Part shown: positions 29,399-62,017 of the stretch, piece after piece
Position numbering within the stretch: the first letter of the stretch is position 1
Layout: every line of letters starts with the position of its first letter
Origin: Bacteroidales bacterium
Lineage (GTDB): Bacteria > Bacteroidota > Bacteroidia > Bacteroidales > UBA10428
Direction of reading: 5' to 3'
Assembly: GCA_016934395.1 (NCBI GenBank)
Contig: JAFGSZ010000079.1
Coordinates: forward strand, 1-64,000
DNA: 64,000 nucleotides
Made by a program: the position numbers and the translations under genes
Notes under the pieces: generated by a model
Databases searched by the model: none
What the model was told of the DNA's origin: nothing
Seen by the model: only the letters and a program-made list of their open reading frames with translations

Positions 29399-32300
29399 TT
29401 ACTTTTTTAATGCATTTATCAGTTCCGCATTAGTAACTTCCCGGGTATTGTATTCCCTCAAATATTCCTGGTGTTCAGTGTCATTTGGATAAGATTCGTC
29501 GGGGCCATAAGGGTAACAGCTCATGCCATGGAAGGGCAGGGGTTCCACCGTCTGGCCGGTGGCTGTATTTAAATCACCGTCTTTTACCCAGCCTACGTTA
29601 TAGATCATAAAGTCTCGTTTCCAGCCATCTTTTAATACAGGTAATTTATCTGTGCTGAATTCCAGGGATATTTCGTCACCGGCGTTCATTATAACGTATT
29701 TGCTGTCGGGTTTATCGAGCAGGGGTAATACATCGCCAAAGCGGGTATACATACCGGTGAGGTCGCGCCATTTTTTATCTTCTGAAACCTTAGTGTAGTC
29801 AAACCAATGCGGACCGTATCTTCCTCCTTTTCTGAATTCGGCTGAGAAACCCCGGTATTGAAGATCGGCTGTTTCGGGTTTCAATTCGTTGGTAAGCAAA
29901 TGTTTATTGATATCGGTATATGCATAAAAAATCAAATCCCAATAAATTTGCATATTTGTGCGTATGCGGATGCACCGGTCAGCCGACAGGAATTTGTTGC
30001 CCAGCTTCACCACTATGGTTTTATTTTTTCCCATAGGGAAACTCAGGTCCCGGATCACTGTTTCCCATTCCCCGTTTTTGTTCACTACCTGTATTACCGG
30101 CATTTCAGATTTTAATTCCGAAGATTGCGAAAGTGCAAAATTTATGCTGGCATCCGTGGGGAATACCCAGCCGTTTAGAAAGAGGTAAAGATTATCTGCG
30201 GGTTTCACCTTGCCCAGATCCAGGATCAGGTCTTTGGGTACGGTAATGCCCTGGTATTTTCCAAGCTTAAAATTAGAGATGTAGTTATCATCTTTTTCAA
30301 TGATGTACGGGAGCAGATCGTTACCTTTATCATCGGTTGCAGAAACCGGAAAATATTTTTTACCGGTAACATATACATCAAAATAGGGAAAGGGTGGGGG
30401 AGAAAAACGTTCGTCCACGTAAACATCCACCGAATCGGGATGGTCTACGGCAATAAGCCTTATTTTGTCCATATAAATAGTTTCCCATAATTCAGCCGTT
30501 ACCTTCAGGGAATACTTTCCGTCTTTTGGCTGCAACAATTCTCCGGGAATTTTATAATAATCATCCGATGCTTCGGGAAATCCATAGGTAGTAGTTCCCC
30601 CCATAATTCCTAAGGGCATTCCCAGAGCGCTTCTCCATAGTATGTCCTTGGCCAGTACATATTCACTTCCGTTCCAGGTATACAAAAACGGGCACGAACC
30701 TTTTAAAACCTGGGCTTCGATAATCGACTGGTCGGATCCCGGGAAAAAGATATTCTGGGGCACCCCGTTGGTCCAGGTAATCCGTATAATATCCGATTTC
30801 TGTCGACTACCCAGCCCGAAGATCACATTCGGATCGGTAACCACCTTGGTTTGGTAAAGGTCTCCCGAGCGCATTTCAACCTTGGCGCCAATTCCGTAAT
30901 AATTGTTTTTAGCGCTGCCGGTGCGTAATCCCACCAGTTTTATTTTCACAAAATGGTTCAGGTTGCCGCCATCATTCCGGAGGAGGCGCACTGTTCCGTT
31001 AAAACCTGCAATCAGTATATCCACATCACCGTCTACATTATAATCGAAGGTGGTGATTTGCCGGCCCGATTTTAAATCTTCAGGTAATAAGTAAGAAACA
31101 TCGTCGTAATTATCAATACCGTTATTATGAAATAAAAACACCCCGTTTCCGTCTTTTTCAGACGATTCTCCTACCACCAAAAGATCAAGGGCCCCATCGT
31201 TATCAAAATCGATAAATTCAGCATCATAAACGCTAACATTTTTTAATTCCTTAAAAATCTCACCCGACTTTTCATCCTTTGTAAATTTTCCTTCACCGGC
31301 ATTAATATATAACTTTTGGTTCCCCCCCTCTGAAGTGCCGATAAAAAAATCGAGGAATCCATCGTTATTATAGTCACCCACAGCCACGGCACTTGAGTGA
31401 GTATTATTTTCCAGTCCCGATTCTTCAATACTATTTTTAAACTGGTCCTGCCGCTGATTAAAATAGAGTGCATTTTTCGCATCCTGGTTAATCACAAACA
31501 GGTCAATATCGCCGTCTTCGTCAAAATCGCCAAATGCGGCATCACGGCTAATGGTATTCCCTCCGTCTATAAACATTTTTCCGGCCTGTTCCCCGAAGGT
31601 TCCATCTCCGTTATTGCGGAAAAGTACATTTGGTCCTGCTTTAGGTAAAAATAAATCCAGGTCGCCGTCATGATCAATATCAAAAAACAGGGCTTTATTT
31701 CCTCCGGTTTGGATATCTAAGTTTGCTTTGCGGGAAACATCCTCAAATTCTCCTTTTCCGTTGTTCCTGTAAAGAATATTATTTCCTTCGGTGATAATAA
31801 ATAAATCGGGATAGCCATCATTGTCATAATCGTCAAATTTTGACCCGAGTTCGTTACCTGAATGCCTTATTCCGGCATCTTTTGCCACATCGAAGAACTT
31901 TCCCATATCGCTGGTAAACAGGTAATGCCTGTAGGTTGACGATTTCACATCAAAGGTTCCTGCATACAGGTCAATATCCCCGTCGCTGTCATAATCATTT
32001 ACCGAAACGTGAGTTAATCCCGGTGTTGTATTTTCACTGATTTGATTTATAACATCCAGGCCTGCAGAGGCTGTGATATCTGTAAAGCTCATATTTTCAA
32101 GTATGGATACCGGTTTGTTTTCATCTGAAAGTACCTGCTGATCAAAGGTAATTACAGGGAACCCGATGAGAGAACCCCCGGGGCCTTTAAGATCCATTAT
32201 GCCTGCCTGATATGGGGACGTAACTTTCAGATAATTATGAAATATTATAAAGGGTGTGATTGCTTTTTCATAATCTCCTTGTTGCAGTATATCCAGGCAT

Positions 32301-32947
32301 CTATCATAATACTCTTCTGCCTCTCTTGGAAATTCAGGAAAAAGTTTTACAATCTCTTCCAGTTGTTCCAAAGCAGGTTCGGCTTTACCGTTCCGGATAA
32401 AAATTTCGGTGAGGCTTAAACGCGGAACCAGGTTTGCCGGATCGTTCTCAACGATTTTAAGTAAATAAAATTCCCGTTGTTTCTGGTATGAGGTATCTGT
32501 TTGGTTTGAAAATAACTCAGAAAGATTATACAGGGTTTTAATATGTGTGGGAGAGTATTTCAGGGATTCTTTTAGTTGTTCGATGGCCTTTTCTTTGTCA
32601 TCGGCCATTTCATATACAGTGGCAATTATTAACCGTACATCCGGATCTTCAGGATCAATTTTTATGGCTTTTTTTAAGATTTTTTCCGCTTCCTTATATT
32701 TTCCCATCCTCAAATACACCAGCCCTAAATTGGCATATCCTAATTTTTCTTTTGGGGCGAGTTTAATAAATTTAAGGAATTCCTGCTCCGCTTCGTCAAG
32801 TTTGTTTTCTTCAAGGTAGGCGAGTCCAACTGTGCGGGCTGAAATCAGTTCGAGTGATTTTTTCTTTTGTTTTTCTTCGTTATTGGTACAGTTTATCAAA
32901 AAGAGAGAAAAAATACCGATTAAAAGATAAGAATATAAGGTCTTCAT
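29399..32947 (-). CDS. TPR-CRTAC1 lipoprotein (TPR, VCBS propeller, ASPIC/UnbV, unknown C-terminal domain)
   Basis: A 1182-residue lipoprotein (lipobox FLINC, C20). TPR repeats cover about 40-240 (YANLGLVYLRMGKYKEAEKILKKAIKIDPEDPD). A seven-bladed VCBS/FG-GAP propeller covers about 310-660, with blade motifs such as DYDSDGDIDLYAG, DYDNDGYPDLFI and DIDHDGDLDLFL, whose aspartates bind Ca2+ in this family. An ASPIC/UnbV domain follows (about 665-745, ending in VIFGLGSRQKSDIIRITWTNG). The final 430 residues start GSCPFLYTWNGSEYVLAKDILWRSALGMPLG and form a domain I cannot assign, though I know this start from other CRTAC1 proteins. It is probably surface- or periplasm-exposed and is the last gene of the minus-strand locus. 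Confidence 0.82.
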   Translation of the reverse strand: MKTLYSYLLIGIFSLFLINCTNNEEKQKKKSLELISARTVGLAYLEENKLDEAEQEFLKFIKLAPKEKLGYANLGLVYLRMGKYKEAEKILKKAIKIDPEDPDVRLIIATVYEMADDKEKAIEQLKESLKYSPTHIKTLYNLSELFSNQTDTSYQKQREFYLLKIVENDPANLVPRLSLTEIFIRNGKAEPALEQLEEIVKLFPEFPREAEEYYDRCLDILQQGDYEKAITPFIIFHNYLKVTSPYQAGIMDLKGPGGSLIGFPVITFDQQVLSDENKPVSILENMSFTDITASAGLDVINQISENTTPGLTHVSVNDYDSDGDIDLYAGTFDVKSSTYRHYLFTSDMGKFFDVAKDAGIRHSGNELGSKFDDYDNDGYPDLFIITEGNNILYRNNGKGEFEDVSRKANLDIQTGGNKALFFDIDHDGDLDLFLPKAGPNVLFRNNGDGTFGEQAGKMFIDGGNTISRDAAFGDFDEDGDIDLFVINQDAKNALYFNQRQDQFKNSIEESGLENNTHSSAVAVGDYNNDGFLDFFIGTSEGGNQKLYINAGEGKFTKDEKSGEIFKELKNVSVYDAEFIDFDNDGALDLLVVGESSEKDGNGVFLFHNNGIDNYDDVSYLLPEDLKSGRQITTFDYNVDGDVDILIAGFNGTVRLLRNDGGNLNHFVKIKLVGLRTGSAKNNYYGIGAKVEMRSGDLYQTKVVTDPNVIFGLGSRQKSDIIRITWTNGVPQNIFFPGSDQSIIEAQVLKGSCPFLYTWNGSEYVLAKDILWRSALGMPLGIMGGTTTYGFPEASDDYYKIPGELLQPKDGKYSLKVTAELWETIYMDKIRLIAVDHPDSVDVYVDERFSPPPFPYFDVYVTGKKYFPVSATDDKGNDLLPYIIEKDDNYISNFKLGKYQGITVPKDLILDLGKVKPADNLYLFLNGWVFPTDASINFALSQSSELKSEMPVIQVVNKNGEWETVIRDLSFPMGKNKTIVVKLGNKFLSADRCIRIRTNMQIYWDLIFYAYTDINKHLLTNELKPETADLQYRGFSAEFRKGGRYGPHWFDYTKVSEDKKWRDLTGMYTRFGDVLPLLDKPDSKYVIMNAGDEISLEFSTDKLPVLKDGWKRDFMIYNVGWVKDGDLNTATGQTVEPLPFHGMSCYPYGPDESYPNDTEHQEYLREYNTREVTNAELINALKK

Positions 32948-33390: not shown

Positions 33391-34677
33391 TCATTTAGCT
33401 TCAACAGGCTTACCATTTCTGATTTCCAGTAAATCAGGTATTCCTTTTCTATTGCCATACCTTTCAAACTCTATTGATCCGGTTGCTCCATTGTATTGAA
33501 GTGATTTCATGGATTGTATTATATTTTCTCTATCGGTACCTCCCTTTCTGATAGCTTCAATTATTACATTCATTCCATCATAAGCATAAGCTGCCACCGG
33601 ACCCGGCAGATATCCAAACTGCTCCAGAAAATCATTTTGAAATTCCATCCCTTTTGTTGTAAACCAAAAATCTGCAGAAATAAATACTCCTTTTTCAGCG
33701 TATTTCCAGAATTCCTTCAGGGTGGCGCTTTCACCTAAAACAGAAATCGGGCCATACAGGGTATAATCCATTTCAGTTTCTGACAATTTTTTAATTAACC
33801 GAAGTGAATTTTCAGGTCCTCCAAACAGTATTATGTTTTGTATTCCCGATGCCTGAATTTGATTAAGCAAATTGTTAAAATCAGGCTTCAGCAGATCATA
33901 AAACAATTGTTGCGGAACAGGAGATTCTATTTTTTTTAATTGTTTTACAAAACAACCGGCAGCCAGTTTGCCATCATACCCGTTGTCTGATACAATTATA
34001 AATTTACTGGGTTTTCTTTTATTTATTATTTCATCGGCAAGTACTTTTGCCTGCTGATTATCGTCTGGCACGCATCGGAAATACCAGGGAACAAAAGCCT
34101 GTGAAAGGGTGGGATCGGTAGCCCGCGATGATACCATCATCACTTTTGCTTTTGTAGCTACCTGTTCGATTAAATGAGCATTTCGCCCATCCAGCGATGC
34201 AAGAATAGCCGTAACATTATATTCAGTAATCAGACTTACTACTTCTTTAGCAGCGGCACCCCATGGCCCGTCGCAATAACGTACCAATAGTTTAAAATCT
34301 TTTTGATTAAATCCACCTACGGAATTAGCATGGTTTATGGCAAGTTTTGCTCCATGAAGGGCAGCCAGGGCTAACTCACTTTTCGATTCCCTGGTGCTGA
34401 GCATTAATCCAATATTAGTGGTTTCTGTACAGAAATCATGTTCAGCGACAACTGATGTTACTTTTTTATCCGATATATTTACCGGTATTTTTATTTTAGA
34501 TGAATCTTTATTAACCGTATTTGCTTTTATAGTTTGTTTTTCCGTTTTCGAAGATATATTTTGACATGCAGCGAATACAATTAAGCTAGTAAAGCTCAAT
34601 ACTCTTACAATTCCTGATATTGTAAAATATTTTGCTCCGACAGCCATCCGGGCATAATTCTTCTTTCGGAACATCAT
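33391..34677 (-). CDS. Type I periplasmic binding lipoprotein (LivJ/Peripla_BP_6-like), second copy
   Basis: A 428-residue lipoprotein with an unusually long N-region before the hydrophobic core (VLSFTSLIVFAACQN, lipobox FAAC). The mature domain has the two-lobed fold of branched-chain amino acid/urea-type binding proteins: TNIGLMLSTRESKSELALAALHGAKLAINHANSVGGFNQKDFKLLVRYCDGPWGAAAKEVVSLI, VMMVSSRATDPTLSQAFVPWYFRCVPDDNQQAKVLADEI and GPVAAYAYDGMNVIIEAI. It is a paralogue of the upstream gene, which shares WGAAANEVV, PWMIRCMSDD and AYDGMN. No ABC permease or ATPase of the Liv type is in the window, so it may deliver ligand to something else or act as a sensor. Confidence 0.82.
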   Translation of the reverse strand: MMFRKKNYARMAVGAKYFTISGIVRVLSFTSLIVFAACQNISSKTEKQTIKANTVNKDSSKIKIPVNISDKKVTSVVAEHDFCTETTNIGLMLSTRESKSELALAALHGAKLAINHANSVGGFNQKDFKLLVRYCDGPWGAAAKEVVSLITEYNVTAILASLDGRNAHLIEQVATKAKVMMVSSRATDPTLSQAFVPWYFRCVPDDNQQAKVLADEIINKRKPSKFIIVSDNGYDGKLAAGCFVKQLKKIESPVPQQLFYDLLKPDFNNLLNQIQASGIQNIILFGGPENSLRLIKKLSETEMDYTLYGPISVLGESATLKEFWKYAEKGVFISADFWFTTKGMEFQNDFLEQFGYLPGPVAAYAYDGMNVIIEAIRKGGTDRENIIQSMKSLQYNGATGSIEFERYGNRKGIPDLLEIRNGKPVEAK

Positions 34678-34754: not shown

Positions 34755-36026
34755 TTATTTAAAAGCTGTGGGGAAAAACACAAATTTACCGTTTTTCACT
34801 TCTGCCTGCCAGATATCCCCAATGTCATTCCAGGATGCATCAAAAATAATTTTTCCGGTGATCCCCTGGTATCCCTGGAAAGTTTTCATATCGGTTAATA
34901 CATCCCTAATTAGGGCACGGTTTAAACCTGCTTTTTTTATAGCTTCAATGGTAATATTCATTCCATCGTATGCATGTGCTGCAAATACATCAGGTTCCTG
35001 GTTAAACCTTTTCCGGTAATTTTGTTGAAATGCCTTTAGCTCCGGAATATCCGCATCCGGATTATACTGACAGGTAGTAATAATCCCTTCAGCATTTTTC
35101 CCGGCAATCCTTAAAAATTCGGGAGATACTACACGGTCGCTTGCAAATGCAGGTTGGTTCATACCCATTTCACGCATCTGGTTTAAAATTAACGCTGATT
35201 CTGTGGCATTACCCCAAATCAATACCGCATCAGGGGATAAGGTTTTTATTCGTTCCAGTTGTGTTTTAAAATTCGTTTCACCATCATCAAATCGCACTTC
35301 CAGAATTGTGGGATGCCCTATACGTTCGGCGCCGTCTTTAAACTCGGCTGTGCCTACACGTCCGTACCTGTTATTAGCCCGGATTACGGCAACACGTTTA
35401 TACCCTTTCTGTTCATAAACATAGTTTACCAGGGCATAACAACTCTGCCGGTCATCACTCATACACCGAATCATCCATGGGATACGGGTTTCAGTAAATG
35501 TAGGATCCGGATCACTTGTGTTTATCATAGGAATTTCAAGTTTCAAAGCGACCCTCAGAGCCACATGTGAATTGATATCATCAATAGTCCCTAAGAAAGC
35601 CCAGGCGCCTGCATCATTCATTTTTACCACTTCATTTGCAGCAGCGCCCCATAATCCCACATCATTATGCACTAATATTTCAAAAGGAATACCATGGTAT
35701 CCGCCTTTTTTGTTTGCTTCTTCCAATGCCAGCATGGTACCCTGCAACATTTGTCTGCCCTGAGGTACTAAAGGGGAACCTTCAAAAGGTCCGAGAACTC
35801 CTATTTTTATCGTTTTTAAATTTGTGGGTGCAGGTTTTTCACGACCGGCGCCAGTAAATTCCTGCGGAGTATCAAAGAAATTTACATAGGCTTTTTGAAA
35901 TCGTCCGAAAGGAACCATTTCATCAGGCGTTCTGCCATAGTTTTGTTTTTGATCCTGCCCGTAGGTTTCCGGGAAAAGTATAAGGACCAAGCTAAATGCC
36001 GATAATATAAACAACCTGGTTTTCAT
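34755..36026 (-). CDS. Type I periplasmic binding protein (LivK/Peripla_BP_6-like), first copy
   Basis: A 423-residue exported protein with a signal peptide cleaved near TYGQD (about residue 23). The binding-protein core starts IKIGVLGPFEGSPLVPQGRQMLQGTMLALEEANKKGGYHGIPFEILVHND and continues with WGAAANEVVKMNDAGAWAFLGTIDD, EIPMINTSDPDPTFTETRIPWMIRCMSDDRQ, YKRVAVIRANNRYGRVG and AAHAYDGMNITIEAI. Members bind amino acids, urea, amides or aromatic acids. It lies 35 bases after the Reg_prop gene and 77 bases before the second copy. The ligand is unknown; keeping two paralogues suggests two related ligands. Confidence 0.85.
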   Translation of the reverse strand: MKTRLFILSAFSLVLILFPETYGQDQKQNYGRTPDEMVPFGRFQKAYVNFFDTPQEFTGAGREKPAPTNLKTIKIGVLGPFEGSPLVPQGRQMLQGTMLALEEANKKGGYHGIPFEILVHNDVGLWGAAANEVVKMNDAGAWAFLGTIDDINSHVALRVALKLEIPMINTSDPDPTFTETRIPWMIRCMSDDRQSCYALVNYVYEQKGYKRVAVIRANNRYGRVGTAEFKDGAERIGHPTILEVRFDDGETNFKTQLERIKTLSPDAVLIWGNATESALILNQMREMGMNQPAFASDRVVSPEFLRIAGKNAEGIITTCQYNPDADIPELKAFQQNYRKRFNQEPDVFAAHAYDGMNITIEAIKKAGLNRALIRDVLTDMKTFQGYQGITGKIIFDASWNDIGDIWQAEVKNGKFVFFPTAFK

Positions 36027-36061: not shown

Positions 36062-37168
36062 TTATTTTATTTTAGTTCCGTGAGATACTCCTTTTGATGT
36101 AGCTACCCATATATCATCACCTTTTACATCTACACCAATTACAAAATTATGTGCAATAGCAGTCGGAGCGGTATTTTCAGTTATATCATCACCCTTACGA
36201 TAAATAACTTTTCCTGATGTACCATTCTCATCTTTTTTATAGGTAACCCAGCTTTCACCATTAAAACTACTGAGCCCCTTGTCGGTGCATAAAAATACTA
36301 CCGGGCCAATGGCTCTAAGGTTGTTTATAAAATTACTGGCCAGGCCGCTATCGTGATCAAAAAAACCTTTCCACCTCGTACCATCGTATCGGCTTAATCC
36401 AAAATAGGTTGCAACCCATAATATATCATCAGCATACGATACTGCTGTGGTAATATCATGCACCACACCATCATCGGGGAATAAGTCAATTTCCATTTCA
36501 CCGTCCGGGTCCACGTGATCCCTGAATCGTTTGGTCTTTTTATCCTGTTCAATCACACCGCCACCCCAGGCAGCAATATATACTTTTTCTTCACTGGCAC
36601 ATACGCCATACGTCCATGGTTCGTGCATGGGTGCGTTTCTTTCTGTGTAAATTTCCCATTCTCTTGTATAGGTATCATAATGGCTCGCACCTCCACCGGT
36701 AGCAGCCCATATATCTTTACCATCGCACACAATGGAGTAAATTACATCGTTTGCCAAACCACTATTAAACTGCGTATAGGTTACAAATTTACCCGCGGAA
36801 AGCTGGCTGACACCTCCCATGGTCCCAATCCACAGGTCTCCGGAAAGTTCGCTTACATCAATAGAAATTACATGATTATGGGCGAGGCCGTCATCCACTG
36901 TATAGGTCTTCCATGTTCCATTTTCGAATAATGCAAGTCCGGCGCTGGTTCCAACCCATACCCTGTTTCCATCAATACGAACACAATAAGCCTTATCAGC
37001 CGGAAGTCCGTTCTTTTTCGAATAACTTTTCCAGTTTCCATAGGTTGGTACAGGGGCAGGTTTAAAGCTGCCCCCGGTGCCCTGGCAGAAGATTTCAAAA
37101 TCCGCAGCCCAAAAGAAAACAAATACAAGCGCGGTAATTAACAGATGTTTCAGGTTAGTTGTTTTCAT
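36062..37168 (-). CDS. Exported Reg_prop-type beta-propeller protein
   Basis: A 368-residue protein with a signal peptide (about 1-28). It is made of repeated blades of the two-component-regulator propeller type: WKSYSKKNGLPADKAYCVRIDGNRVWVGTSAGLALFENG, WKTYTVDDGLAHNHVISI, DLWIGTMGGVSQL, IWAATGGGASHYD, LWVATYFGLSRYDG and IWVATSKGVSHG. In hybrid two-component sensors these blades form the periplasmic ligand-binding part. Here there is no histidine kinase or DNA-binding part, so the protein is a free periplasmic or surface propeller. It sits between the heme-propeller genes and the two binding-protein genes, 7 bases after the former. Confidence 0.8.
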   Translation of the reverse strand: MKTTNLKHLLITALVFVFFWAADFEIFCQGTGGSFKPAPVPTYGNWKSYSKKNGLPADKAYCVRIDGNRVWVGTSAGLALFENGTWKTYTVDDGLAHNHVISIDVSELSGDLWIGTMGGVSQLSAGKFVTYTQFNSGLANDVIYSIVCDGKDIWAATGGGASHYDTYTREWEIYTERNAPMHEPWTYGVCASEEKVYIAAWGGGVIEQDKKTKRFRDHVDPDGEMEIDLFPDDGVVHDITTAVSYADDILWVATYFGLSRYDGTRWKGFFDHDSGLASNFINNLRAIGPVVFLCTDKGLSSFNGESWVTYKKDENGTSGKVIYRKGDDITENTAPTAIAHNFVIGVDVKGDDIWVATSKGVSHGTKIK

Positions 37169-39209: not shown

Positions 39210-39210
39210 T

Positions 39211-44664: not shown

Positions 44665-44827
44665 AAGTGCTTAGAGTACTTAAAGTGTCTGAAGTGTCTA
44701 AAGTGTCTGAAGTGCCTAAAGTATTAAAAGTGCCAAAAGTGCCAAAAGTGCCAAAAGTTAAAAATTAATCAATACTTTATGAACTCCAAACTTTATGAAC
44801 TCCAAACTTTATGAACTTTAAATACTT
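44665..44827. repeat. Composite intergenic repeat, long copy
   Basis: Ten consecutive 9-bp units with consensus AAGTGYCWA-like sequence (44665-44754: among them AAGTGTCTG, AAGTGTCTA, AAGTGCCTA and three AAGTGCCAA) are followed by AAGTTAAAAATT and three 16-bp units (ACTTTATGAACTCCAA twice, ACTTTATGAACTTTAA; 44774-44821). The end runs into the last codons of the CRTAC1 gene at 44826. Module order and orientation equal those at 33114-33190. Confidence 0.85.
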
Positions 44828-49850: not shown

Positions 49851-50078
49851 AATATGAAGTAATAGGAATGAAGTAAAAATAATTAGATTCCTAAGCAAAT
49901 CAAAACTCTTTTACTTGTATCTAAAATCTCTAATAGAATGGTTTTAAAACGTAGGCATTAAACACATGTAAACAGATATTTAATAAAATTCACACAGAAA
50001 TACCAGGCATAGATAATAAAGTTTTTGAAGATAAAAATTAAAAGGTAGAGAAAACAACTGATTTATTGCACAGACAAT
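49851..50078. other. Intergenic region upstream of the second large CRTAC1 gene
   Basis: About 230 AT-rich bases between the chorismatase-like gene and the start of the large CRTAC1 gene. No hairpin or promoter consensus was recognised. Confidence 0.35.
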
Positions 50079-54400: not shown

Positions 54401-54843
54401 CCGGATACACTTACATAAATGTCAAGTAATCCATCGTTATTTATATCGCAGATCGTTGATCCCAACATCCATCGGGTATCGCCACCGGTATTTGAAATTT
54501 CTGTCACATCTTCAAATTCAAGATTTCCTTTATTTAAATACAGTTTATTACTTATCATATTTCCAACTAAATATATATCCGTTAGTCCATCATTATTAAA
54601 ATCACCTACTGATACCCCACCGCCCATATATATATATGAAAATAAGAAATAATTAAAAGTATCTGTTTCAGTAAGGGTGTTTTCGAATGTTATATTCGTT
54701 TTATCAGAGGAGAGTTTTTTGAAAAGTGAAAGGTCTTTACTTTTTTCTAATTGAGTACATGAAATTAATAGAAAAAAAAATAAAGATTTTATAATACCAA
54801 AAATTACTACTGTCTTAAATGGGAGTTTAGAAGATATATTCAT
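51487..54843 (-). CDS. Large two-propeller CRTAC1 lipoprotein, first after SusD
   Basis: A 1118-residue lipoprotein (LLISCT, C29). The architecture equals the paralogue at 46560: an N-terminal VCBS propeller (DFNNDGLTDIYLVGN, DINNDGLLDIYVSVS, DYDNDGDLDLYVANY, DLNQDGFKDIYISND, DYNNDGLLDIMQID, DFDLDGWKDLYITNG, DLDNDGDLELIVNN), a central ASPIC/UnbV domain (LKVNFEGTSTNKMGIGSIVNI, LYFGLSGNEMIDSLQVTWSDG) and a C-terminal propeller (DADLDGDLDLYVVSGG, DFDNDGDLDLFVGG, DFDKDGDIDLVAGN, DFNNDGNPDILAAGN). It is the first gene after SusD, the position where surface glycan-binding proteins sit in polysaccharide utilization loci, and is separated from susD by a terminator hairpin. I infer a surface ligand-binding protein working with SusCD. 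Confidence 0.85.
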   Translation of the reverse strand: MNISSKLPFKTVVIFGIIKSLFFFLLISCTQLEKSKDLSLFKKLSSDKTNITFENTLTETDTFNYFLFSYIYMGGGVSVGDFNNDGLTDIYLVGNMISNKLYLNKGNLEFEDVTEISNTGGDTRWMLGSTICDINNDGLLDIYVSVSGLLNIRENLLFVNQGINKEGIPVFIEEAEKYGINDPGLSTQSTFFDYDNDGDLDLYVANYPITSFKSPPFFYKQMMRHVKMKDSDHLYRNNGDGTFTNVTVESGLLSFGLSLSATVGDLNQDGFKDIYISNDFTSPDFFYFNNGDGTFTDRTAEVIRQTSFYGMGADIADYNNDGLLDIMQIDMAPEDNQRAKENMASMDRVDFDDMIKEGLHHQYRYSTLFLNRGVIKNELPYFSNAAWIAGVTSTDWSWAALFADFDLDGWKDLYITNGSRRDINNIDYFNKMGKSGYFDKGLDKSEMLDWVKNMPYKPLVNYIFKNNGDFTFSQFNKQWNINETSYSNGVAYADLDNDGDLELIVNNIDEEALVYRNLAREKKFGNYLKVNFEGTSTNKMGIGSIVNIWHKGKQQMAELTLSRGYQSSVEPILYFGLSGNEMIDSLQVTWSDGKVQKLKNIKGNQKLTLKYAEAKPVIKQVDINTKIFQEITDIVEFKFIHKENVYDDYKYQVLLPHKMSHLGPDISSGDVNNDKLEDFFFGNASNSAGRMFTQRSDGAFDILKGPWETDYLYEDLGSLLFDADLDGDLDLYVVSGGSEFPEDSKNYQDRLYINDGKGNFSKSENSLPVITTSGSCVTSIDFDNDGDLDLFVGGRQIPKKYPFPAKSYILENITNNGYVKFKDVTSTVAPDLVEAGMVTSVLSADIDNDQWTDLVVVGEWMPVCFYRNNKGKFEKTIVEGTKGWWFSIEGADFDKDGDIDLVAGNLGLNFRYQASTEKTFDIYAADFENDGKSDIVLSYYQGKNQYPLRGRECFVEQNPGISLKFPTYESFGKATVSDIYTKKALQKSLHLQSEIFASCYFENAGNGKFKIHKLPNEAQLSSINDIIIDDFNNDGNPDILAAGNLYDVEIVTPRNDGGVGVFLKGSGDGSFEFVPVWNTGFFVPGNVKALSMIKTGNGQKLILVGNNNENMQVFKLEQ

Positions 54844-54936: not shown

Positions 54937-56529
54937 TTAATATCCAGGATTCTGATCAGCATTTGTTAAACTCTCATTTGCATTAATTTCAGTCTGGGGT
55001 ATTGGCCATAATACATGTGTGGTTGCATTAAAAACCAGATCTTCTTGCTCCTGTAAAGGAAGGTCATCATATACCTCAGTCATAAAAGCAGCTAATCGAC
55101 CCCATCTTACTAGGTCGGGGAATCTGACTTGTTCACCGCATAATTCCACCTTACGTTCATGTTCAAGAGCAACCATAAACTCAGCCAAAGTACCAACAGG
55201 GTAAGTTGCATCCATAGCCAGAGTACCGTAATTAGGCATAGCTACATCTGCTCTGTTTCTTACCTGGTTCATATAACCAACTGCTGTAGCAAGGTTTCCG
55301 CCTGCTCTGTTGGCTTCAGCCTCAGCCATCATCAACAAAACATCGGCATATCGTATAATTTGCATATTTATACCAGATGCTTCTCCGGATACACTACCTT
55401 CACTCGGTTGTTTATAATAATTCTGGTATTTTCTCCAACCAGCTCTTGGGTAGAAAGAGCCGTCTGATTGTTCTAAATCAGTTATAGCAGCCGTAAGAGT
55501 ACCATTATTATATGAATCACCATTCAAATAGAAACAATATCCAAACCTTGGATCACCAGCTTCAAATTCATTACGAAGGTTTACAGAAGGAAATACATTC
55601 CACCAGTTGAAGCAGCCATATTCCTGGCCCCTGAAACAAGATTCATTTAATCCCTGGTCACTCCTGTCGGAATCCCAACGATTCGCATTACCTGCTGCAA
55701 TATTAAATTCTACAGCAAATATAGATTCATCACCATGTTCGGTTTCTTCCATAAAGTTATCAAAGTAAGCATCCTCAAGTGAGTACCCTGTAACATTATT
55801 AAAGGCATCCATTGCTCCCTGGTAATCTTCCTGGAACAAACGAACTTTACCTAATAATGCCCAGGCAGCACCCGATGTTACCCTACCAAGATCTTCTTCT
55901 GATTTATCAAGACACTGTGCTGCAGCATCTTCAAGGTCTGATTCAATTAGGTCATATATTACCGCTTTCGATGTTTTTGGCTGACCCTGTACCGGATCAT
56001 TAGGATCAGGAACTTCCAACATTAAAGGTACATCGCCAAACCGATCAACCAGCATAAAATAATACAAGGCCCTTAAAAATTTAGCTTCACCGTCAAACTT
56101 TAATTTTCTTGCTGTTGCCATTTCCGATTCCAGTATTTCTCCGATTACATCAGCATTATTAATAACAAAATTTGCTTTATTAATACCCCTGTAGCAGCTT
56201 TCCCAGAAAGCTCCAATTGCTCCGTGTGACGGGTCAAATGAAAAATCCAGGTACTGACGTTTGTCAGATTCCAATTGAGGATTGCCAGAATTTTCGTGTC
56301 CCATATTATCATATCCAAACCAGATATGACGGTTATATAGACCCCTGGTTTGTAAACTGCCATATATAGCATTTACCGCAGATTGCACCTGTACCTCATT
56401 TTTAAAATAGGTTTCAGGTCGAAGTTCATTTGGATTTGACAGTTCTAATTTATCAGCATTACAGGAGTAATTTAGAACTAGTGCACCAAAAGTAATTGCT
56501 AGAAATATAAATTTAATTATTTTCATCAT
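54937..56529 (-). CDS. SusD/RagB-family outer-membrane lipoprotein
   Basis: A 530-residue lipoprotein (LNYSC, C23) with the SusD/RagB helical fold: the N-terminal NPNELRPETYFKNEVQVQSAVNAIYGSLQTRGLYNRH, TPR-like helices (LRALYYFMLVDRFGDVPLM, AAWALLGKVRLFQEDYQGAMDAFNNV) and the C-terminal family signature RYADVLLMMAEAEAN, GYMNQVRNRADV, ERKVELCGEQVRFPDLVRWGR and LWPIPQTEINAN. It forms the lid on the SusC barrel and captures the substrate outside the cell. The gene follows susC by 15 bases. The substrate is not evident, as no glycanase is present in the locus. Confidence 0.95.
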   Translation of the reverse strand: MMKIIKFIFLAITFGALVLNYSCNADKLELSNPNELRPETYFKNEVQVQSAVNAIYGSLQTRGLYNRHIWFGYDNMGHENSGNPQLESDKRQYLDFSFDPSHGAIGAFWESCYRGINKANFVINNADVIGEILESEMATARKLKFDGEAKFLRALYYFMLVDRFGDVPLMLEVPDPNDPVQGQPKTSKAVIYDLIESDLEDAAAQCLDKSEEDLGRVTSGAAWALLGKVRLFQEDYQGAMDAFNNVTGYSLEDAYFDNFMEETEHGDESIFAVEFNIAAGNANRWDSDRSDQGLNESCFRGQEYGCFNWWNVFPSVNLRNEFEAGDPRFGYCFYLNGDSYNNGTLTAAITDLEQSDGSFYPRAGWRKYQNYYKQPSEGSVSGEASGINMQIIRYADVLLMMAEAEANRAGGNLATAVGYMNQVRNRADVAMPNYGTLAMDATYPVGTLAEFMVALEHERKVELCGEQVRFPDLVRWGRLAAFMTEVYDDLPLQEQEDLVFNATTHVLWPIPQTEINANESLTNADQNPGY

Positions 56530-56544
56530 TCTATATTATTTGAA

Positions 56545-59500
56545 TTAAAATGTAATTTGAATACCTGCTGTCAGCGCTTTTGGTATAGGATAAGCACCTA
56601 CATCAATTCCATTAGCAAAGTTATTTAATGGCTGGCCATTACTGTTAGTTCTTGGTGCGCCAATGTTAGAAGCGTCATTTTGAACAACTGTGTTTGCTCC
56701 AATTTCAGGATCTAAACCAGAATAATCGGTAAGGGTTATCAGATTTTGTGCACTTACATAGATTCTCATTTTTGAAAATACGTTTCCAAAAATGCCGTCA
56801 GGTAATGTGTATCCCAGTGTAATATTCTTAACCCTGGTATATGAACCGTCTTCTACGAACCTGGAAGATGCTTGAATATTTGTTGCGGCACCACCAGCTC
56901 TTGGAACTGTATTTGAAGGATTAGTAGTAGTCCATCTGTCTAATACTGCTGTTCCAGAATTAAATAATCTTGGCATACCTTCCAAATCATAAATATTGGT
57001 ATTGTATACGTCATTACCATATACTCCGGTAATAAATACATTAAGATCAAGCCCTTTATAATTTGCACTTAAATTTAATGCAGCTGTCAGTTTTGGGAAT
57101 GGATTTCCAATTTTTGTTCTATCAGCATCGCTAATTACATTATCTCCATTGGTATCTGCAATGCGGAAGTCACCAGCCCTGGCGCTTTTTGTATTATATT
57201 GCGAGCCTCCCATATAGGCGAGCGCGTCTGCATCACTCTGGAAGATACCATCAAATTTCCAGCCATAAAAATAGAACAAGGGTTCACCTACATCTGCTCT
57301 TGAAATATTTTCATTTTCAAAACTGAATCCCTGAATGGGTTGTCCACCGAGCGATAACACTTCATTTTTAAAAGTACCCAGGTTCAAACTAGCAGACCAT
57401 TGAAAATCACCTTCAAAATCATTATAACCCAATTGAAGTTCCAAACCTTTTGTTTCAACAGAACCTACATTTTGCGGTACTGATGCAGTAAATATACCAA
57501 AAGTAGGTATAGTTGGTACGGGTATTAACAAGTCATCAGATTTATTAATGTAATATTCAACAGCCATTGTAAACTGATTGTTTAATAATCCAAGGTCCAA
57601 TCCAATGTTTGTCATACTTATTTCCTCCCATTTCAAATCGGGATTTTCCAAATTACCAATGGTTGTACCAACAGCAGCTATATCATTAATTACATAAAAC
57701 ATATTTGATGATGCTGTTGAAGAATATTTATAATCTCCGATTTTATCATTTCCGGTTTTACCCCAACTGGCCCTTAGTTTTAAGTTGCTGATCATATCTG
57801 CATTCATCATAAATGCTTCTTTATTAATTCTCCAACCTACAGCTACTGATGGGAAGATACCCCAACGGTTATTGGCACCAAACCGGGAAGAAGCATCTCT
57901 TCTAATTGAAGCTGCAAACAAATATTTCTGGTCATAGTTATAATTTAACCTGCCTAAATATCCGATCCTTTTATATTCAGTAAGTGTGGAAGTCATATTG
58001 GAACCTGTATTTACGAGTTGCTCCACATCGTCACTTATAGAATTCTGACTGGAGATGTTGGCAAGAGTGTTGTTGATATTACTTGCTTCAATCAGGGCTA
58101 ATATCTCCACATTATGAACATCAGCAAATGTTTTTGTATAATTCAAACTATTGGTAAATATAAGCGACTGATAAGTTGCCCTGTTTTTCCTTATAATTGA
58201 ACTGCTTCTAGCATGTGTGCCACTACCAAGGTTATCGTCGTTATACGAAGGTAAAAACTGGTCATCATTTAGCCTGATATCTTCCAACCCGGCTACTGAT
58301 TTAAATTTCAACCCATCAATTATTTCAAGTTCACCATAGATATTCCCTATAATGCTGGTTGTTTTATTGGAAAAAGTATTTAATTGAAGAATTCTTAAAG
58401 GGTTTTCTGCATCCTGTCCGTCAATTGGTGAAGACGGCCCCTGATAACCACCTAAGTTATTTTCATTATAAACAGGCAAATATGGCGCCATTTTAATAGA
58501 ATGCTCAAGAATTGAACGACCGCCTGCATCAGGTAAAGGATTCTGATCAGAAAAGGCCACAGCTAAATTTTCTCCTATTTTTAATTTTCCATACTTAAAA
58601 TCACTATTAGCCCTGAAATTATACCGTTCGTAACCTGTGGTTTTTATGATCCCTTCCTGGCTAACGTATCCCCCTGAAATTCTGTAAGTACTGTTTTCAC
58701 CTCCACCAGCTACTCCCAGATTATAATTTTGCATAAAACCCGTTTGAAATACTTCGTCCTGCCAGTTTGTTTCACCCTGAATTCTGCTTGCATATATAGG
58801 ATTAGTTATTGCTTCAGGAGTTGTAGTCACATCAGGAGATGAAGCATATTGAATATATTGTTCGGTATTTAATACATCAAACCTGCTGTTGTTCCATTGT
58901 GTACCCCAGTAAGCATCAAAATCAACTTTTACTTTACCGGAAACACCTTGTTTTGTTGTAACTAAGATTACACCATTAGATCCCTGAGAACCATAAATGG
59001 CAGCTGTAGAGGCATCTTTCAACACCTGAATAGATTCAATATCGTTTGGATTTACATCTCCCAATCCGGCAGCAACAACACCATCAATAACAATTAGCGG
59101 GTCGTTGTTTCCAGCAGTACTTATACCCCTGATTCGAATTGTTGGGGCAACGCCAGGAGAACCATTATTTACAACAGTTACACCAGCAGCACGACCTTGT
59201 AATGCCTGATCAGCCGTAGTAACAGGAACTGCGGTAATTTCCTGAGCATCAACGGAAGAAATTGCTCCGGTAACTTCAAGTCTTCGCTGGGTGCCATAAC
59301 CTACAACCACGATTTCTTCGAGGCTTCTAATATCAGGCATTAATGCAATGCTTAAGACGGTTTGTGCACCAACAGTAACTTCTTCATTTAAATATCCCAC
59401 GTAGCTAAATACGAGCACATCACCTGCATTTGCCTGAATACTAAATTTTCCATCGAGGTCTGAAACAACACCACGTGTTGTACCTTTAACCAGCACATTG

Positions 59501-59934
59501 GCACCCGGCAGAGGTTCCTGGGTAGAACCATCTGTTATTGTACCCTCAATGCTCTGCTGCAGATTTTGTTTAAGAGTTAATACCACAAGGTCGTTATTAA
59601 ATACCTTGTAAGTAATGTCAGAAGTTTCAAACAGTTTTTCCAGAATCTGTTCAACATTTTCATTCTTAACATTCAGATTTACAACATTATCAATGTAACT
59701 GAATTCATCGTTGTAAAAGAACCTGAATTTGCTTTGTTGTTCAAGGATCTGAAAAACTTCACGTACTGTCTTTCCGTTTAAATCCAGGTTAAACTTAGTA
59801 TTCTGTGAATACACAGATGCTCCTAAGTTTAAAGATAAAACAAATGATAATAGTGTAGTTAGTTTCATAATCAGGATTAGTTTATTAAGCTTTCTTTTAT
59901 ATAGGAAAGCTAGATAATAAAAATAATTTTTCAT
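56545..59934 (-). CDS. SusC/RagA-family TonB-dependent transporter with STN domain
   Basis: A 1129-residue outer-membrane transporter. The signal sequence ends near VYSQN (residue 44); the 23-residue basic pre-region is common in this group, and M23 at 59868 is the alternative start. An STN signalling domain (about 46-118) is followed by a carboxypeptidase-regulatory-like Ig domain (127-198), the EEIVVVGYGTQ segment (206-216), the plug (AISSVDAQEITAVPVTTADQALQGRAAGV) and a long barrel (RIRGISTAGNNDPLIVIDG, SRFGANNRWGIFPSVAVGWRINKEAF) ending in AGIQITF. The STN domain implies ligand-dependent signalling to the FecR anti-sigma factor encoded just upstream. It imports an oligomer captured by SusD. 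Confidence 0.96.
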   Translation of the reverse strand: MKNYFYYLAFLYKRKLNKLILIMKLTTLLSFVLSLNLGASVYSQNTKFNLDLNGKTVREVFQILEQQSKFRFFYNDEFSYIDNVVNLNVKNENVEQILEKLFETSDITYKVFNNDLVVLTLKQNLQQSIEGTITDGSTQEPLPGANVLVKGTTRGVVSDLDGKFSIQANAGDVLVFSYVGYLNEEVTVGAQTVLSIALMPDIRSLEEIVVVGYGTQRRLEVTGAISSVDAQEITAVPVTTADQALQGRAAGVTVVNNGSPGVAPTIRIRGISTAGNNDPLIVIDGVVAAGLGDVNPNDIESIQVLKDASTAAIYGSQGSNGVILVTTKQGVSGKVKVDFDAYWGTQWNNSRFDVLNTEQYIQYASSPDVTTTPEAITNPIYASRIQGETNWQDEVFQTGFMQNYNLGVAGGGENSTYRISGGYVSQEGIIKTTGYERYNFRANSDFKYGKLKIGENLAVAFSDQNPLPDAGGRSILEHSIKMAPYLPVYNENNLGGYQGPSSPIDGQDAENPLRILQLNTFSNKTTSIIGNIYGELEIIDGLKFKSVAGLEDIRLNDDQFLPSYNDDNLGSGTHARSSSIIRKNRATYQSLIFTNSLNYTKTFADVHNVEILALIEASNINNTLANISSQNSISDDVEQLVNTGSNMTSTLTEYKRIGYLGRLNYNYDQKYLFAASIRRDASSRFGANNRWGIFPSVAVGWRINKEAFMMNADMISNLKLRASWGKTGNDKIGDYKYSSTASSNMFYVINDIAAVGTTIGNLENPDLKWEEISMTNIGLDLGLLNNQFTMAVEYYINKSDDLLIPVPTIPTFGIFTASVPQNVGSVETKGLELQLGYNDFEGDFQWSASLNLGTFKNEVLSLGGQPIQGFSFENENISRADVGEPLFYFYGWKFDGIFQSDADALAYMGGSQYNTKSARAGDFRIADTNGDNVISDADRTKIGNPFPKLTAALNLSANYKGLDLNVFITGVYGNDVYNTNIYDLEGMPRLFNSGTAVLDRWTTTNPSNTVPRAGGAATNIQASSRFVEDGSYTRVKNITLGYTLPDGIFGNVFSKMRIYVSAQNLITLTDYSGLDPEIGANTVVQNDASNIGAPRTNSNGQPLNNFANGIDVGAYPIPKALTAGIQITF

Positions 59935-60025
59935 AGATTTGAATTGTTTTTAAGATTAGACATTTTTATGCTGGAGAACATCGCGTTACATTCCGCATTA
60001 TTGATGTTTGATCAGATTTTTAATG

Positions 60026-60051
60026 GGGAATGGATCTTTGCATCTGTTCCC
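60026..60051. promoter_or_regulatory. Stem-loop in the susC leader region
   Basis: GGGAATGGAT (60026-60035) pairs with ATCTGTTCCC (60042-60051), a 10-bp stem with two GT pairs and a 6-base loop, about 90 bases upstream of the SusC start. The T-run (60052-60058) follows it on the plus strand only, where there is no upstream gene. On the coding strand it would be an mRNA leader hairpin. Confidence 0.4.
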
Positions 60052-60133
60052 TTTTTTTAATTTTTTTAATTATTTTGGCATAGGCGTTTTTTAATTTTTA
60101 TGAAGTTAATAATTAATGTAGTATTATTCTAGT

Positions 60134-61285
60134 TTATTTTTTCTTCAGGTGATTACTGAATTTTCTCATCATATCTTCATTTTCATATATTTCAACATTC
60201 TTACCTTTTAAGGCATATTCAATAGGCGCAGAAAGTTTAATGACATCCAATACCTGAGTAAGTGTTTCGTCCTCAAGTGTTCCGGTAAAACGAAAATGCT
60301 TTAAGTTTTCTGATTCAAAATTAAATGTGACATTATATTTTCGTTCCAGTTTAATTAACAGGTTACTAAGTTCTTCTCCTTTTAAAATCAGCCTGTTATC
60401 TTTCCATGAAACAACTGGAGCAGGATCGACTTCAGCTGCAATATACATATTCCCTTTTTTCGGTTTTAGTATTTCGGGAATTGATTGCCTGATGGTGTTT
60501 ATATCTTCAACCCTTAATTGTTGATATTCTTTTATATATACTGCCTTCTGATGAGGTTTTAGAAAGATAGTCTGAAGGGAATTGTTTTTCTGCTGATTAT
60601 GCTGAATGGATACCCTGCCTTCGACCAAGGTAGTTTCTATTACACCTTCATCCTCATATGATTTTACATTAAATTCTGTACCTAATGCCACAATTTTTAA
60701 TTCTCCGGTAATTACATTAAAAGGCAATTTTTTATTTTTAGCTACCTTAAAATAAGCTTCTCCTTCGAGAGATACGAATCTGTTTTTTTTGTTAAACATA
60801 TCCAAATATCTGATCTTACTCCCTGCGTTTAGCCAGACTTTTGATCCGTCAGGAAGTATTACTTCAGATCGTGCACCAAGGGGGGCGCAGATTTCATTAT
60901 ATGAGAATACAGATCGTTCTTCGTGATTAAAAATATAATAGGACAGAACACCACCGGATGCAAATAATAATATGAAAATGGCAGCAATTTTCACTAACTT
61001 CATAATGCTCCAGTCTTTCCAGTTTGTGATTTGCATTTTGAATTTTTTCTCATGCTTGTTATGGTCAATGGCAGAAACAATTGAGTTATAAATCCTGTCA
61101 AAATTAACTGATTGATCTTCTGATTCGTTTGGTTTAAAATCAGATAACTCATCCAAAAGAATATCCTTTACGAGGTGTTCATTATTATCATCGGTTAAAG
61201 CTTCCCTTAACTTTTTTAAATCATCCTTTGTAGATTCATTTCTTCGGAACTTCTTCAAGTGTATTTTTAACTCAAAAATATTCAT
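60134..61285 (-). CDS. FecR-family anti-sigma factor
   Basis: A 383-residue inner-membrane protein. The cytoplasmic N-terminal sigma-binding part (1-95) is followed by one membrane helix (IMKLVKIAAIFILLFASGGVLSYYIF, about 94-119), the periplasmic FecR domain (ICAPLGARSEVILPDGSKVWLNAGSKIRYL, VSLEGEAYFKVAKNKKLPFNVITGELKIVALGTEFNVKSY, TTLVEGRVSI) and a DUF4974-type C-terminal domain (LSNLLIKLERKYNVTFNFESENLKHFRFTGTLEDETLTQVLDVI). It would contact the STN domain of SusC and release the ECF sigma factor. It is encoded between the two. Confidence 0.95.
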   Translation of the reverse strand: MNIFELKIHLKKFRRNESTKDDLKKLREALTDDNNEHLVKDILLDELSDFKPNESEDQSVNFDRIYNSIVSAIDHNKHEKKFKMQITNWKDWSIMKLVKIAAIFILLFASGGVLSYYIFNHEERSVFSYNEICAPLGARSEVILPDGSKVWLNAGSKIRYLDMFNKKNRFVSLEGEAYFKVAKNKKLPFNVITGELKIVALGTEFNVKSYEDEGVIETTLVEGRVSIQHNQQKNNSLQTIFLKPHQKAVYIKEYQQLRVEDINTIRQSIPEILKPKKGNMYIAAEVDPAPVVSWKDNRLILKGEELSNLLIKLERKYNVTFNFESENLKHFRFTGTLEDETLTQVLDVIKLSAPIEYALKGKNVEIYENEDMMRKFSNHLKKK

Positions 61286-61423
61286 GTATACGTGAATGTT
61301 AAAATACTTATTTCGTATGTATTATCTATAATACAACTTAGTGATCTTAACTACTCATTCAAAATTGATTTTTTTTTGAAAATAAAGTTGCAGGTGAAAA
61401 GGTGGGCAAGTATTGTTGTGTAT

Positions 61424-61467
61424 TAGAGAATTTTAATCAAATAGAGAATTTTAATCAATTAGAGAAT
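61424..61467. repeat. 18-bp tandem repeat spanning the ECF sigma stop codon
   Basis: TAGAGAATTTTAATCAAA (61424-61441) and TAGAGAATTTTAATCAAT (61442-61459) are followed by a partial third unit TAGAGAAT (61460-61467). The ECF stop codon (61451-61453) lies inside the second unit, so the repeat forms the last codons and the 3' untranslated start. Confidence 0.8.
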
Positions 61468-62017
61468 ATTCCTTGTTTAAATTTTCCCTGATATATCTTA
61501 AGGCCCTGTAAATTTGATTTTCTACTGAGCGCACAGATAGTCCTAAACGATTTGCAATTTCAATATGAGATAAACCTTCCTGCCGGCTTAATTTAAATAT
61601 CATTTGTTGCCTTAAGGGGAGACCCTTTATTAGGTTATCCACAGCGCCTTTCAGGTCATTATAGGCAATAACGTTCTGTGAATGGTCATCCTCTTGTAAT
61701 TCCTGATCCGAAACATGCTTGATGTATTTTTGATGAACAAGTTGATGTTTGAAGTAATTATATACCAGGTTGATGACAGATTTGTAAAGGAAATTTTTTA
61801 AAGAAAGCTTTTCATTTAGGGTTTTACGGTTTTCCCAAAGCGAAATAAATACGTTTTGAATTACTTCTTCAGTTTCGGCAGAGGAATGCAAATATCCTAG
61901 TGCAAAGAAGTATAATTTTTCTTTATACTTATTAAAGATCGCTTCAAATGCGGATTTATCACCATCCTTCAGCTTACGGACCAGATAGCAGTCACTATAT
62001 GAACACTTTGAACTCAA
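61451..62017 (-). CDS. ECF-type RNA polymerase sigma factor
   Basis: A 188-residue sigma-70 family protein of the Bacteroidota SusCD-linked ECF group. Region 2 (about 20-90) contains DKSAFEAIFNKYKEKLYFFALGYLHSSAETEEVIQNVFISLWENRKTLN; region 4 (about 125-180) contains LPLRQQMIFKLSRQEGLSHIEIANRLGLSVRSVENQIYRALRYIRENL. No ATG precedes region 2; the start is TTG at 62017 (or ATT three codons up), an in-frame TAA being only a few codons further. It lies 165 bases upstream of fecR. It is held by FecR and, when SusC binds ligand, should activate the SusCD-led locus. Confidence 0.93.
   Translation of the reverse strand: MSSKCSYSDCYLVRKLKDGDKSAFEAIFNKYKEKLYFFALGYLHSSAETEEVIQNVFISLWENRKTLNEKLSLKNFLYKSVINLVYNYFKHQLVHQKYIKHVSDQELQEDDHSQNVIAYNDLKGAVDNLIKGLPLRQQMIFKLSRQEGLSHIEIANRLGLSVRSVENQIYRALRYIRENLNKEYSLID

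Follow-up and report, generated by a model that had tools for sequence, protein, structure and literature searches.

Gene content of the locus

The window analysed here is the whole stretch of 64,000 nucleotides from a Bacteroidales bacterium (contig JAFGSZ010000079.1, our C114), which is the first 64 kb of a contig of 117,765 bases in a genome of 4.53 Mb and 155 contigs with a completeness of 98.6% and a contamination of 4.3%. A total of 17 open reading frames (ORFs) at positions 29399-62017 were assigned family domains by profile search and all of them lie on the minus strand, which upholds the single-strand layout reported in an initial annotation of the sequence. Read along that strand, they encode an extracytoplasmic function (ECF) sigma factor, a FecR anti-sigma factor, SusC, SusD, V1, a chorismatase-fold protein, V2, V3, an asparagine synthase-like (asn) protein, a radical SAM protein, V4, homologues of hydrazine synthase (HZS) alpha (HZSa) and of fused HZS beta-gamma (HZSbg), a Reg_prop propeller protein, two binding proteins and V5, where V1-V5 label five CRTAC1-type proteins. 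L and G numbers are used below for loci and genomes respectively.

The core of the locus begins with V4, an FG-GAP/ASPIC protein of the CRTAC1 type (40619-42277, PF13517/PF07593), followed by HZSa (39211-40614, 467 amino acids (aa), lipobox-like N-terminus), HZSbg (37176-39209, 677 aa), the Reg_prop protein (36062-37168, PF07494), binding protein 1 (34755-36026, PF13458, periplasmic and of the LivJ/HAAT type) and the LivJ-type binding protein 2 (33391-34677, PF13458). V5 (29399-32947), a protein with TPR, FG-GAP and ASPIC parts, is a frequent neighbour of this module. For binding protein 1, the nearest solved structures by profile were branched-chain amino acid/amide-type binding proteins (4gnr, E 4e-40). 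No permease or ABC ATPase family was found among the matches listed for the 17 locus and eight flanking proteins, and on this ground ABC uptake by the locus was rejected.

Most families named in the initial annotation were confirmed by the profile scans, namely the ECF sigma factor, FecR, SusC, SusD, the chorismatase-like protein, Asn_synthase, Reg_prop and two Peripla_BP_6 proteins. The radical SAM label was also retained; its Pfam match of 21.1 bits was below the cut-off of 29.5, yet the CxxxCxxC motif is present. Out of the five proteins annotated as VCBS/ASPIC-UnbV, four passed the UnbV_ASPIC cut-off (hmmscan) while V5 was borderline, with 21.4 bits against a cut-off of 23.4 in one scan and 26.7 (above) in another, and with strong FG-GAP repeats (E 6e-44). 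Many members of the locus have signal-peptide- or lipobox-like N-termini (judged by eye or by simple motif), and a cytochrome c assembly gene is present in the host genome.

A conserved module around hydrazine synthase homologues

The two proteins initially annotated as heme-c propellers are homologues of anammox HZS alpha and fused beta-gamma; the earlier description was right in anatomy, with one and three CxxCH motifs, and incomplete in leaving this identity out. HZSa matched HZS alpha in PF18582 (64 bits), NF052339 (106.5 bits) and 5c2v_A (E 7e-19). HZSbg matched NF052342 with 213.5 bits and, as a profile of three sequences, 5c2v_B (E 1e-54) and 5c2v_C (E 3e-30). Both scores were far below the NCBIfam equivalog cut-offs of 800 (HZSa) and 1250 (HZSbg). 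HZSa consists of a propeller and a middle domain with one CxxCH (427), and HZSbg of an N-terminal hydrophobic stretch (by eye), an extra CxxCH (46), a YVTN propeller and a C-terminal di-heme gamma domain with CxxCH at 447 and 570. The homology to HZS alpha, beta and gamma thus extends over their domains except the third, C-terminal heme-aII domain of alpha, which has no counterpart in the window. A profile built from 14 alpha homologues of other phyla gave E 4e-92 to 5c2v_A, in three stretches extending into the C-terminal domain, and a profile of 15 beta-gamma homologues gave E 3e-57 to 5c2v_B and 3e-27 to 5c2v_C. In the AF2 model of HZSbg the propeller was good and its best PDB match by Foldseek was 5c2v_B (TMt 0.88); the gamma site was not read from this model because the pLDDT of the gamma region was mostly below 50. 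In addition, there were weak NCBIfam matches to MbnH and MauG.

Hydrazine synthase is described as unique to anammox bacteria (PMC12607021), and homologues outside that group were published in December 2025 by Hagglund et al. (Genome Biol Evol, PMC12758564); both papers are cited here from part of their text. The latter reported the linkage of alpha, beta-gamma, CRTAC1 and binding-protein genes and described clades I-IV of HZS homologues, including a ten-heme form, which were judged not to be hydrazine synthases and whose function was left open. In that account alphaTyr591, alphaCys303 and alphaHis772 are not kept in the homologues, and every member of clades I-III holds the heme-aI site, in a set which may not include the Balneolaceae loci discussed below.

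Residues of HZSbg were compared over 95 beta-gamma rows (62 multi-heme, 19 three-heme, L044, seven anammox and six divergent), numbered after PMC12607021 and PMC12758564. Both heme-gII histidine positions were His in 95/95 rows. The gammaHis144 position was Trp in all 82 rows of the clade I/III type, His in 7/7 anammox rows and neither in the six divergent rows; this Trp is the MauG/peroxidase Trp according to PMC12758564. Cys was found at the gammaCys165 position in 62/62 multi-heme, 13/19 three-heme and 7/7 anammox rows, Glu in L044 and a residue other than Cys in 6/6 divergent rows. The gammaGlu122 position was Asp in 60/62 multi-heme rows, and the position aligned with gammaAsp168 was F or L in the homologues. 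Window HZSbg has W487 at gammaHis144 and D498 at gammaCys165, and its H574 and H635 align with the two heme gII ligands; window-like rows have F at gammaAsp168 and no Glu at gammaGlu122, both of which depend on the alignment. The window protein therefore lacks the HZS set gammaCys165/gammaHis144/gammaAsp168/gammaGlu122. Many clade-I-type relatives retain two alpha heme motifs.

In a quick tree of 48 rows, built without the published clade III sequences, the window grouped with five window-like rows (99), next joined by rows of Balneolaceae and of the Cytophagales type (100); anammox HZS formed a group of its own (100). The group that contains the window (98) comprises three-heme rows from Bacteroidota and Balneolaceae and one from Planctomycetota. 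The three-heme rows do not form one group in this tree, which speaks against a single clade III: four of the five from Planctomycetota branched outside the group in which the multi-heme rows also lay.

The distribution of the module was determined by a contig profile search with a three-protein beta-gamma alignment (the window and two Balneolaceae), from which 110 loci were confirmed and the 80 best retained; the sample is biased because the scan requires one of two short conserved peptides. Record titles of the 80 loci included Bacteroidetes, Chlorobiota, Balneolaceae, Planctomycetota, Acidobacteria, Verrucomicrobia, Omnitrophota, Aminicenantes, Deltaproteobacteria and others. Main counts rest on tblastn or hidden Markov models because the ORF caller overlays antisense ORFs in GC-rich loci, and the tblastn counts refer to flanks of up to 10 kb, with many loci incomplete at their ends. 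HZSbg was present in 80 loci, Reg_prop in 78, V4 in 75, binding protein 1 in 71, HZSa in 64, binding protein 2 in 52, a RidA-type gene in 23 and V5 in 19 (either strand). Rarer genes were chorismatase-type (8), DAHP synthase (7), nitrilase-type (7), V2-type (4), SusC (3), asn (2) and radical SAM (2). The seven formamidase/nitrilase-like genes were found near multi-heme modules in L033 (17149-18180), L038, L060, L062, L068, L075 and L089.

Gene order was read from the 44 loci in which HZSbg has 4.7 kb or more of upstream and 3.5 kb or more of downstream sequence, on query-set genes only, so that other genes in between would go unseen. V4 and HZSa were the two genes directly 5' of HZSbg in 44/44 loci, as HZSa-V4-HZSbg in 38 and as V4-HZSa-HZSbg, the order of the window, in six. 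The next recognised gene 3' of HZSbg was Reg_prop in 44/44, followed by binding protein 1 in 39; in the remaining five a RidA-type gene stands between the two. Binding protein 2 came after binding protein 1 in 36, and in five more the count ended at binding protein 1. The conserved core across phyla is therefore made of the CRTAC1, alpha, beta-gamma, Reg_prop and binding-protein genes.

Most HZSbg proteins outside Bacteroidota are about 950 aa long with ten CxxCH motifs, the added part being cytochrome c554-like, and the Bacteroidota/Balneolaceae form has three. Three-heme modules were also found in six Planctomycetota loci (L161-L165 and L168). A culturable host of the multi-heme form is Aquisphaera insulae (L072). 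Overall, the module is uncommon in Bacteroidota, where 5/395 genomes matched at 1e-20, with the window's own genome included and G347 matching by the divergent type only. Within its own order 13/198 genomes matched HZSbg, six of them (own included) with the full-length type. In a sample of 392 Planctomycetota genomes, drawn around a genome known to carry the module, the multi-heme profile matched 194 at 1e-15, in many of the listed cases only partially, and 14 reached 430 bits or more.

Genes associated with the module

The chorismatase-fold protein (50079-51254, 391 aa, FkbO/Hyg5-like) matched TIGR04444 with E 2e-36 over residues 146-384 and 125.7 bits, under the curated cut-off of 325. It matched 5ag3 and 4bps by sequence and 5a3k by Foldseek with E 2e-18 (mean model pLDDT 63). 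D372, C374, R375 and E381 were invariant in 7/7 aligned homologues. The window protein has the chorismatase fold in its model, and it retains the C-terminal Cys/Glu motif (C374, E381). Among chorismatases this Cys is characteristic of enzymes that form 3-hydroxybenzoate.

In other loci a RidA-type protein of about 190 aa takes the place of the chorismatase-type gene. The 23 loci with the former and the eight with the latter never overlapped (p 0.06), and the seven DAHP synthase loci all carried one or the other (p 8e-4), with p-values that ignore shared ancestry and are uncorrected for the number of looks. One of the eight, L081, was a weak match on the opposite strand. Among the loci with flank, 24/44 had a chorismatase- or RidA-type gene. 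The Planctomycetota three-heme loci had a RidA-type gene in 6/6 and DAHP synthase in 4/6. Within the window's order, a chorismatase homologue directly adjoined a beta-gamma-like protein of far greater divergence in 4/7 loci examined, which were seven of eight divergent loci (L137 excluded), with L131 ending on the relevant side and L133 and L134 belonging to one genus. The module is thus repeatedly linked to a gene of the chorismatase or RidA type, with DAHP synthase added in some loci. The divergent partner has two hemes, and the pairs are at L013 17431-20000, L133 1062-4036, L134 1408-4382 and L135 1393-4347. Nearby in L013 (12499-16494) is an alpha-like protein of 1331 aa with an FGE-sulfatase domain.

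The asn-like amide synthetase (43305-44633, PF00733, with a SAGIDS loop) and the radical SAM protein (42362-43321, RaSEA-like, TIGR01210 85.2 bits with a cut-off of 212) had been read as part of a biosynthetic unit of one system. This was not supported, and the pair is a separate cassette. The asn gene was found in 24/395 Bacteroidota genomes, of which 20 had no beta-gamma match in a phylum sample of the same size; with asn in only 2/80 loci as well, the pair was rejected as module core. Among 12 asn loci read, ten had a recognised radical SAM homologue and ten shared a third gene, whose product has a FAD-binding oxidoreductase-like N-terminus (by eye). In many Bacteroidota genomes the three genes are found together without the module (L210-L219, e.g. 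L211 5527-9544). The pair lies 5' of V4 in the window, L015, L018, L139 and L144. Genes of this cassette are also close to SusCD-V1 units in L186 (asn and radical SAM) and in L184 (radical SAM, with asn absent or hidden from the ORF caller), and a creatininase-family gene is present in both loci.

The upstream end of the locus is formed by the ECF sigma factor (61451-62017, PF08281 and PF04542), FecR (60134-61285, PF04773 and PF16344), SusC with STN and CarbopepD_reg domains (56545-59934, TIGR04056 869.7 bits, above cut-off), SusD (54937-56529, PF07980) and the adjoining tandem CRTAC1 protein V1 (51487-54843). A second tandem protein, V2, is at 46560-49898 and V3 at 44826-46481; V3-type genes are close to V4 in L144, L146 and, in divergent form, L141. 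CRTAC1-like proteins of about 600 aa paired with a membrane-like protein of 264-288 aa were seen at L150 8505-11125, L010 7256-9877 and L214 11519-14171.

Neighbourhood comparison supported the SusCD unit as a recurrent neighbour of the CRTAC1/redox module in Bacteroidota and Balneolaceae, but not as the defining part of the locus, which is the HZS-like module. SusC was within about 20 kb of HZSbg in 8/13 Bacteroidota/Balneolaceae loci or joined loci that extend for 6 kb or more on one side: the window, L021, L022, L023, L085 (cut), L139, L141/L142 and L144. It was on the strand of the module in the window, L022, L023, L085, L139 and L144. Among the 80 fetched loci SusC was found in three by tblastn and four by ORF calls, all Bacteroidota or Balneolaceae. 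The own genome has 11 SusC above cut-off in 4.53 Mb, so up to about 0.1 would be expected per 40 kb, and other genomes may differ. L139 and L144 represent two other families of the order. Upstream of the module and into it, L139 has SusC, SusD, a sulfatase, V2, asn, radical SAM, V4, HZSa and HZSbg, and L144 has SusC, SusD, four other genes, V1, V3, asn, radical SAM, V4, HZSa and HZSbg. The order SusC-SusD-V1/V2-type also occurs in L184, L185, L187 and L188, in the last one preceded by sigma and FecR genes. V1-type tandem-CRTAC1 proteins were found in 4/149 genomes of the order, all four module-bearing (hypergeometric p 2.5e-7, taking five module genomes in 149, assuming no others among them and with two of the four sharing a genus).

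The arrangement on one strand does not imply one transcript, as four intergenic gaps measure 192-443 bp, within a range of 180-443 bp at several joints; the radical SAM to V4 gap is 84 bp. Scans for sigma-70 consensus promoters gave 44 and 68 matches against 56.5 and 78.5 in shuffles, terminator scans 22 and 14 against 15.4 and 11.2, and the Bacteroidota-type promoter pattern two matches against 3.7 expected. These scans were uninformative on transcription units. Finally, the module is followed downstream, on its own strand, by a gene for a BadF/BcrA-type protein of 1460 aa with DUF2229 (24288-28670).

Interpretation and comparison with known systems

Taken together, the sequences suggest an HZS-like di-heme oxidoreductase module of the cell envelope whose function is linked to a small molecule derived from chorismate, and to which SusCD has been added in particular lineages. 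We give this reading a probability of about 50%, a figure which, like every grading of confidence here, is a judgement. The module products would form a complex in the periplasm or at the outer membrane, where the LivJ-type binding proteins may hand a ligand to the gamma-type di-heme domain. This domain, with Trp at the MauG/peroxidase position, would oxidise or reduce the small ligand. The ligand or its redox partner may be a chorismate-derived small aromatic, and SusCD-V1, switched by the sigma/FecR pair, could carry this compound or a related one through the outer membrane. Hydrazine is not an expected product of the system. Of the initial proposal of TonB-driven capture of a possibly redox-active or aromatic-amide ligand, the redox and the aromatic theme were both upheld; SusCD, on which it was centred, is not part of the core.

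Several observations weigh against this reading. Asp stands at the gammaCys165 position in all six window-like rows, and the alpha CxxCH, present in the window and in 6/6 other Bacteroidota homologues, was found in 0/5 Balneolaceae homologues (L022-L025 and L085), where the module is otherwise kept; therefore the chemistry may differ between branches. The chorismatase score is below its family cut-off and the p-values for linkage carry the limits given above. Neither a chorismatase- nor a RidA-type gene was found in 20/44 loci with flank, nor in the stretch read of the close relatives L015 and L139/L140. SusC was not seen in 5/13 loci (L015, L018, L024, L143 and L146/L147), and the module genome G841, whose module is on a 14-kb contig, had no V1 match. 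No substrate, activity or complex is reported in the literature covered.

The best-placed alternative, which we nevertheless consider unlikely, is that two or three independent units (sigma/FecR/SusCD/V1, asn-radical SAM and the HZS-like module) are stacked by chance. Each unit is found separately in other genomes and the wider gaps at several joints would fit, whereas similar combinations 5' of the module in L139 and L144 and the short radical SAM to V4 distance argue for an association. A little less probable is a maturation system of the MauG/MbnH kind, in which di-heme beta-gamma would oxidise Trp or Tyr of a secreted CRTAC1 or Reg_prop protein to a protein-derived cofactor. The weak matches to both families, the conserved Trp and the constant company of CRTAC1 and Reg_prop genes are consistent with it, but it leaves the binding proteins and the chorismate enzymes unexplained.

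We doubt still more that the locus serves a glycan or sulfated glycan, with the redox genes as unrelated neighbours. The SusC and SusD pair expected of a polysaccharide utilisation locus is present along with sigma and FecR, a GH8 gene lies outside on the other strand (62638-63939), and a sulfatase gene adjoins SusCD in L139. However, no glycoside hydrolase family or other carbohydrate-active enzyme, which such a locus should also contain, was found among the 17 proteins of 29399-62017, and the order has genomes in which SusCD-V1 and the module are both present.

A true hydrazine or hydroxylamine synthase outside anammox, reducing nitric oxide at the gamma heme and condensing at the alpha heme, is very improbable: in spite of counterparts to all three subunits, clade-I-type rows with two alpha hemes, complete gammaCys165, gII His and mostly Asp at Glu122, and an NrfA nitrite reductase (PF02335) in the own genome, the key residues are changed (gammaHis144 to Trp, gammaAsp168 to F/L, gammaCys165 lost in the window subclade, the three alpha residues not conserved in PMC12758564), which makes hydrazine synthesis unlikely, and the Balneolaceae alpha has no heme motif. 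HAO-like PF13447 was found in 19/43 module genomes (18 above cut-off) and not in the own genome, and several of the 19 matches are in frames of about 960 aa which may be the module's own multi-heme protein. An anammox-like nitrogen metabolism is disfavoured on two grounds, the altered HZS residues and the inconsistent presence of HAO-like genes.

A bolder extension of the preferred envelope redox module, which we regard as unlikely, is that HZS-fold complexes outside anammox form a widespread redox system for a self-made, chorismate-derived aromatic mediator. Dedicated DAHP synthase and the chorismatase/RidA-type enzyme would divert chorismate to the mediator, the HZS-like complex, with ten heme motifs per chain in the multi-heme form, would exchange electrons with it, and the binding proteins would recover it, with SusCD-V1 taking it up in Bacteroidota. 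If so, hydrazine synthase would descend from an aromatic-handling enzyme as a branch that handles nitrogen. The chorismatase homologue beside two very different HZS-like branches is a concrete hint at the class of substrate. A way in which Bacteroidota may couple an HZS-like system to uptake is suggested by the SusCD-V1 units.

In a partial coverage of the literature, CRTAC1 with SusD retrieved only human, animal or medical topics by title, UnbV together with SusD no paper, and 'ASPIC UnbV' no paper among the matches listed; nor were further reports of co-localised HZS-homologue clusters beyond PMC12758564 among those listed. The window appears to fit the description of clade III in that paper. 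Shared features are the adjoining alpha and fused beta-gamma genes, with a CRTAC1/FG-GAP gene 5' of alpha and two genes for ABC-type binding proteins further downstream. At the protein level, both have Trp at gammaHis144, a single additional heme motif in beta-gamma and an alpha with the aI motif only and without the heme-aII domain. Departures from the description are the change of gammaCys165 to Asp in the window subclade and the five Balneolaceae loci without an alpha heme motif. The main text, with supplements outside this coverage, has no mention of chorismat, RidA, SusD, TonB or 'regulator propeller'. New relative to it are Reg_prop as a core gene, the chorismatase/RidA-type and DAHP synthase genes, V5, SusCD-V1 in Bacteroidota and the occurrence in more phyla.

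Compared to anammox HZS (Kuenenia, 5c2v), the window shares the propeller and middle domain of alpha, the beta propeller and the di-heme gamma, and its beta-gamma fusion is as in L153 and L158, which were called anammox from their HZS genes. It differs in gene order, in the lack of the C-terminal alpha domain, in changed active-site residues, in the extra N-terminal heme motif and in the accompanying CRTAC1, Reg_prop and binding-protein genes. With the chorismatases FkbO and Hyg5 the chorismatase-fold protein shares the sequence of residues 146-384, the overall fold and the Cys and Glu of the C-terminal motif, while its score is below the family cut-off and its genomic setting is beside HZS-like genes. 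Finally, the sigma-FecR-SusC-SusD order is that of SusCD loci with FecR and ECF sigma factors, as in L188; however, tandem CRTAC1 proteins of about 1100 aa follow here, instead of the glycanases of the usual SusCD loci.

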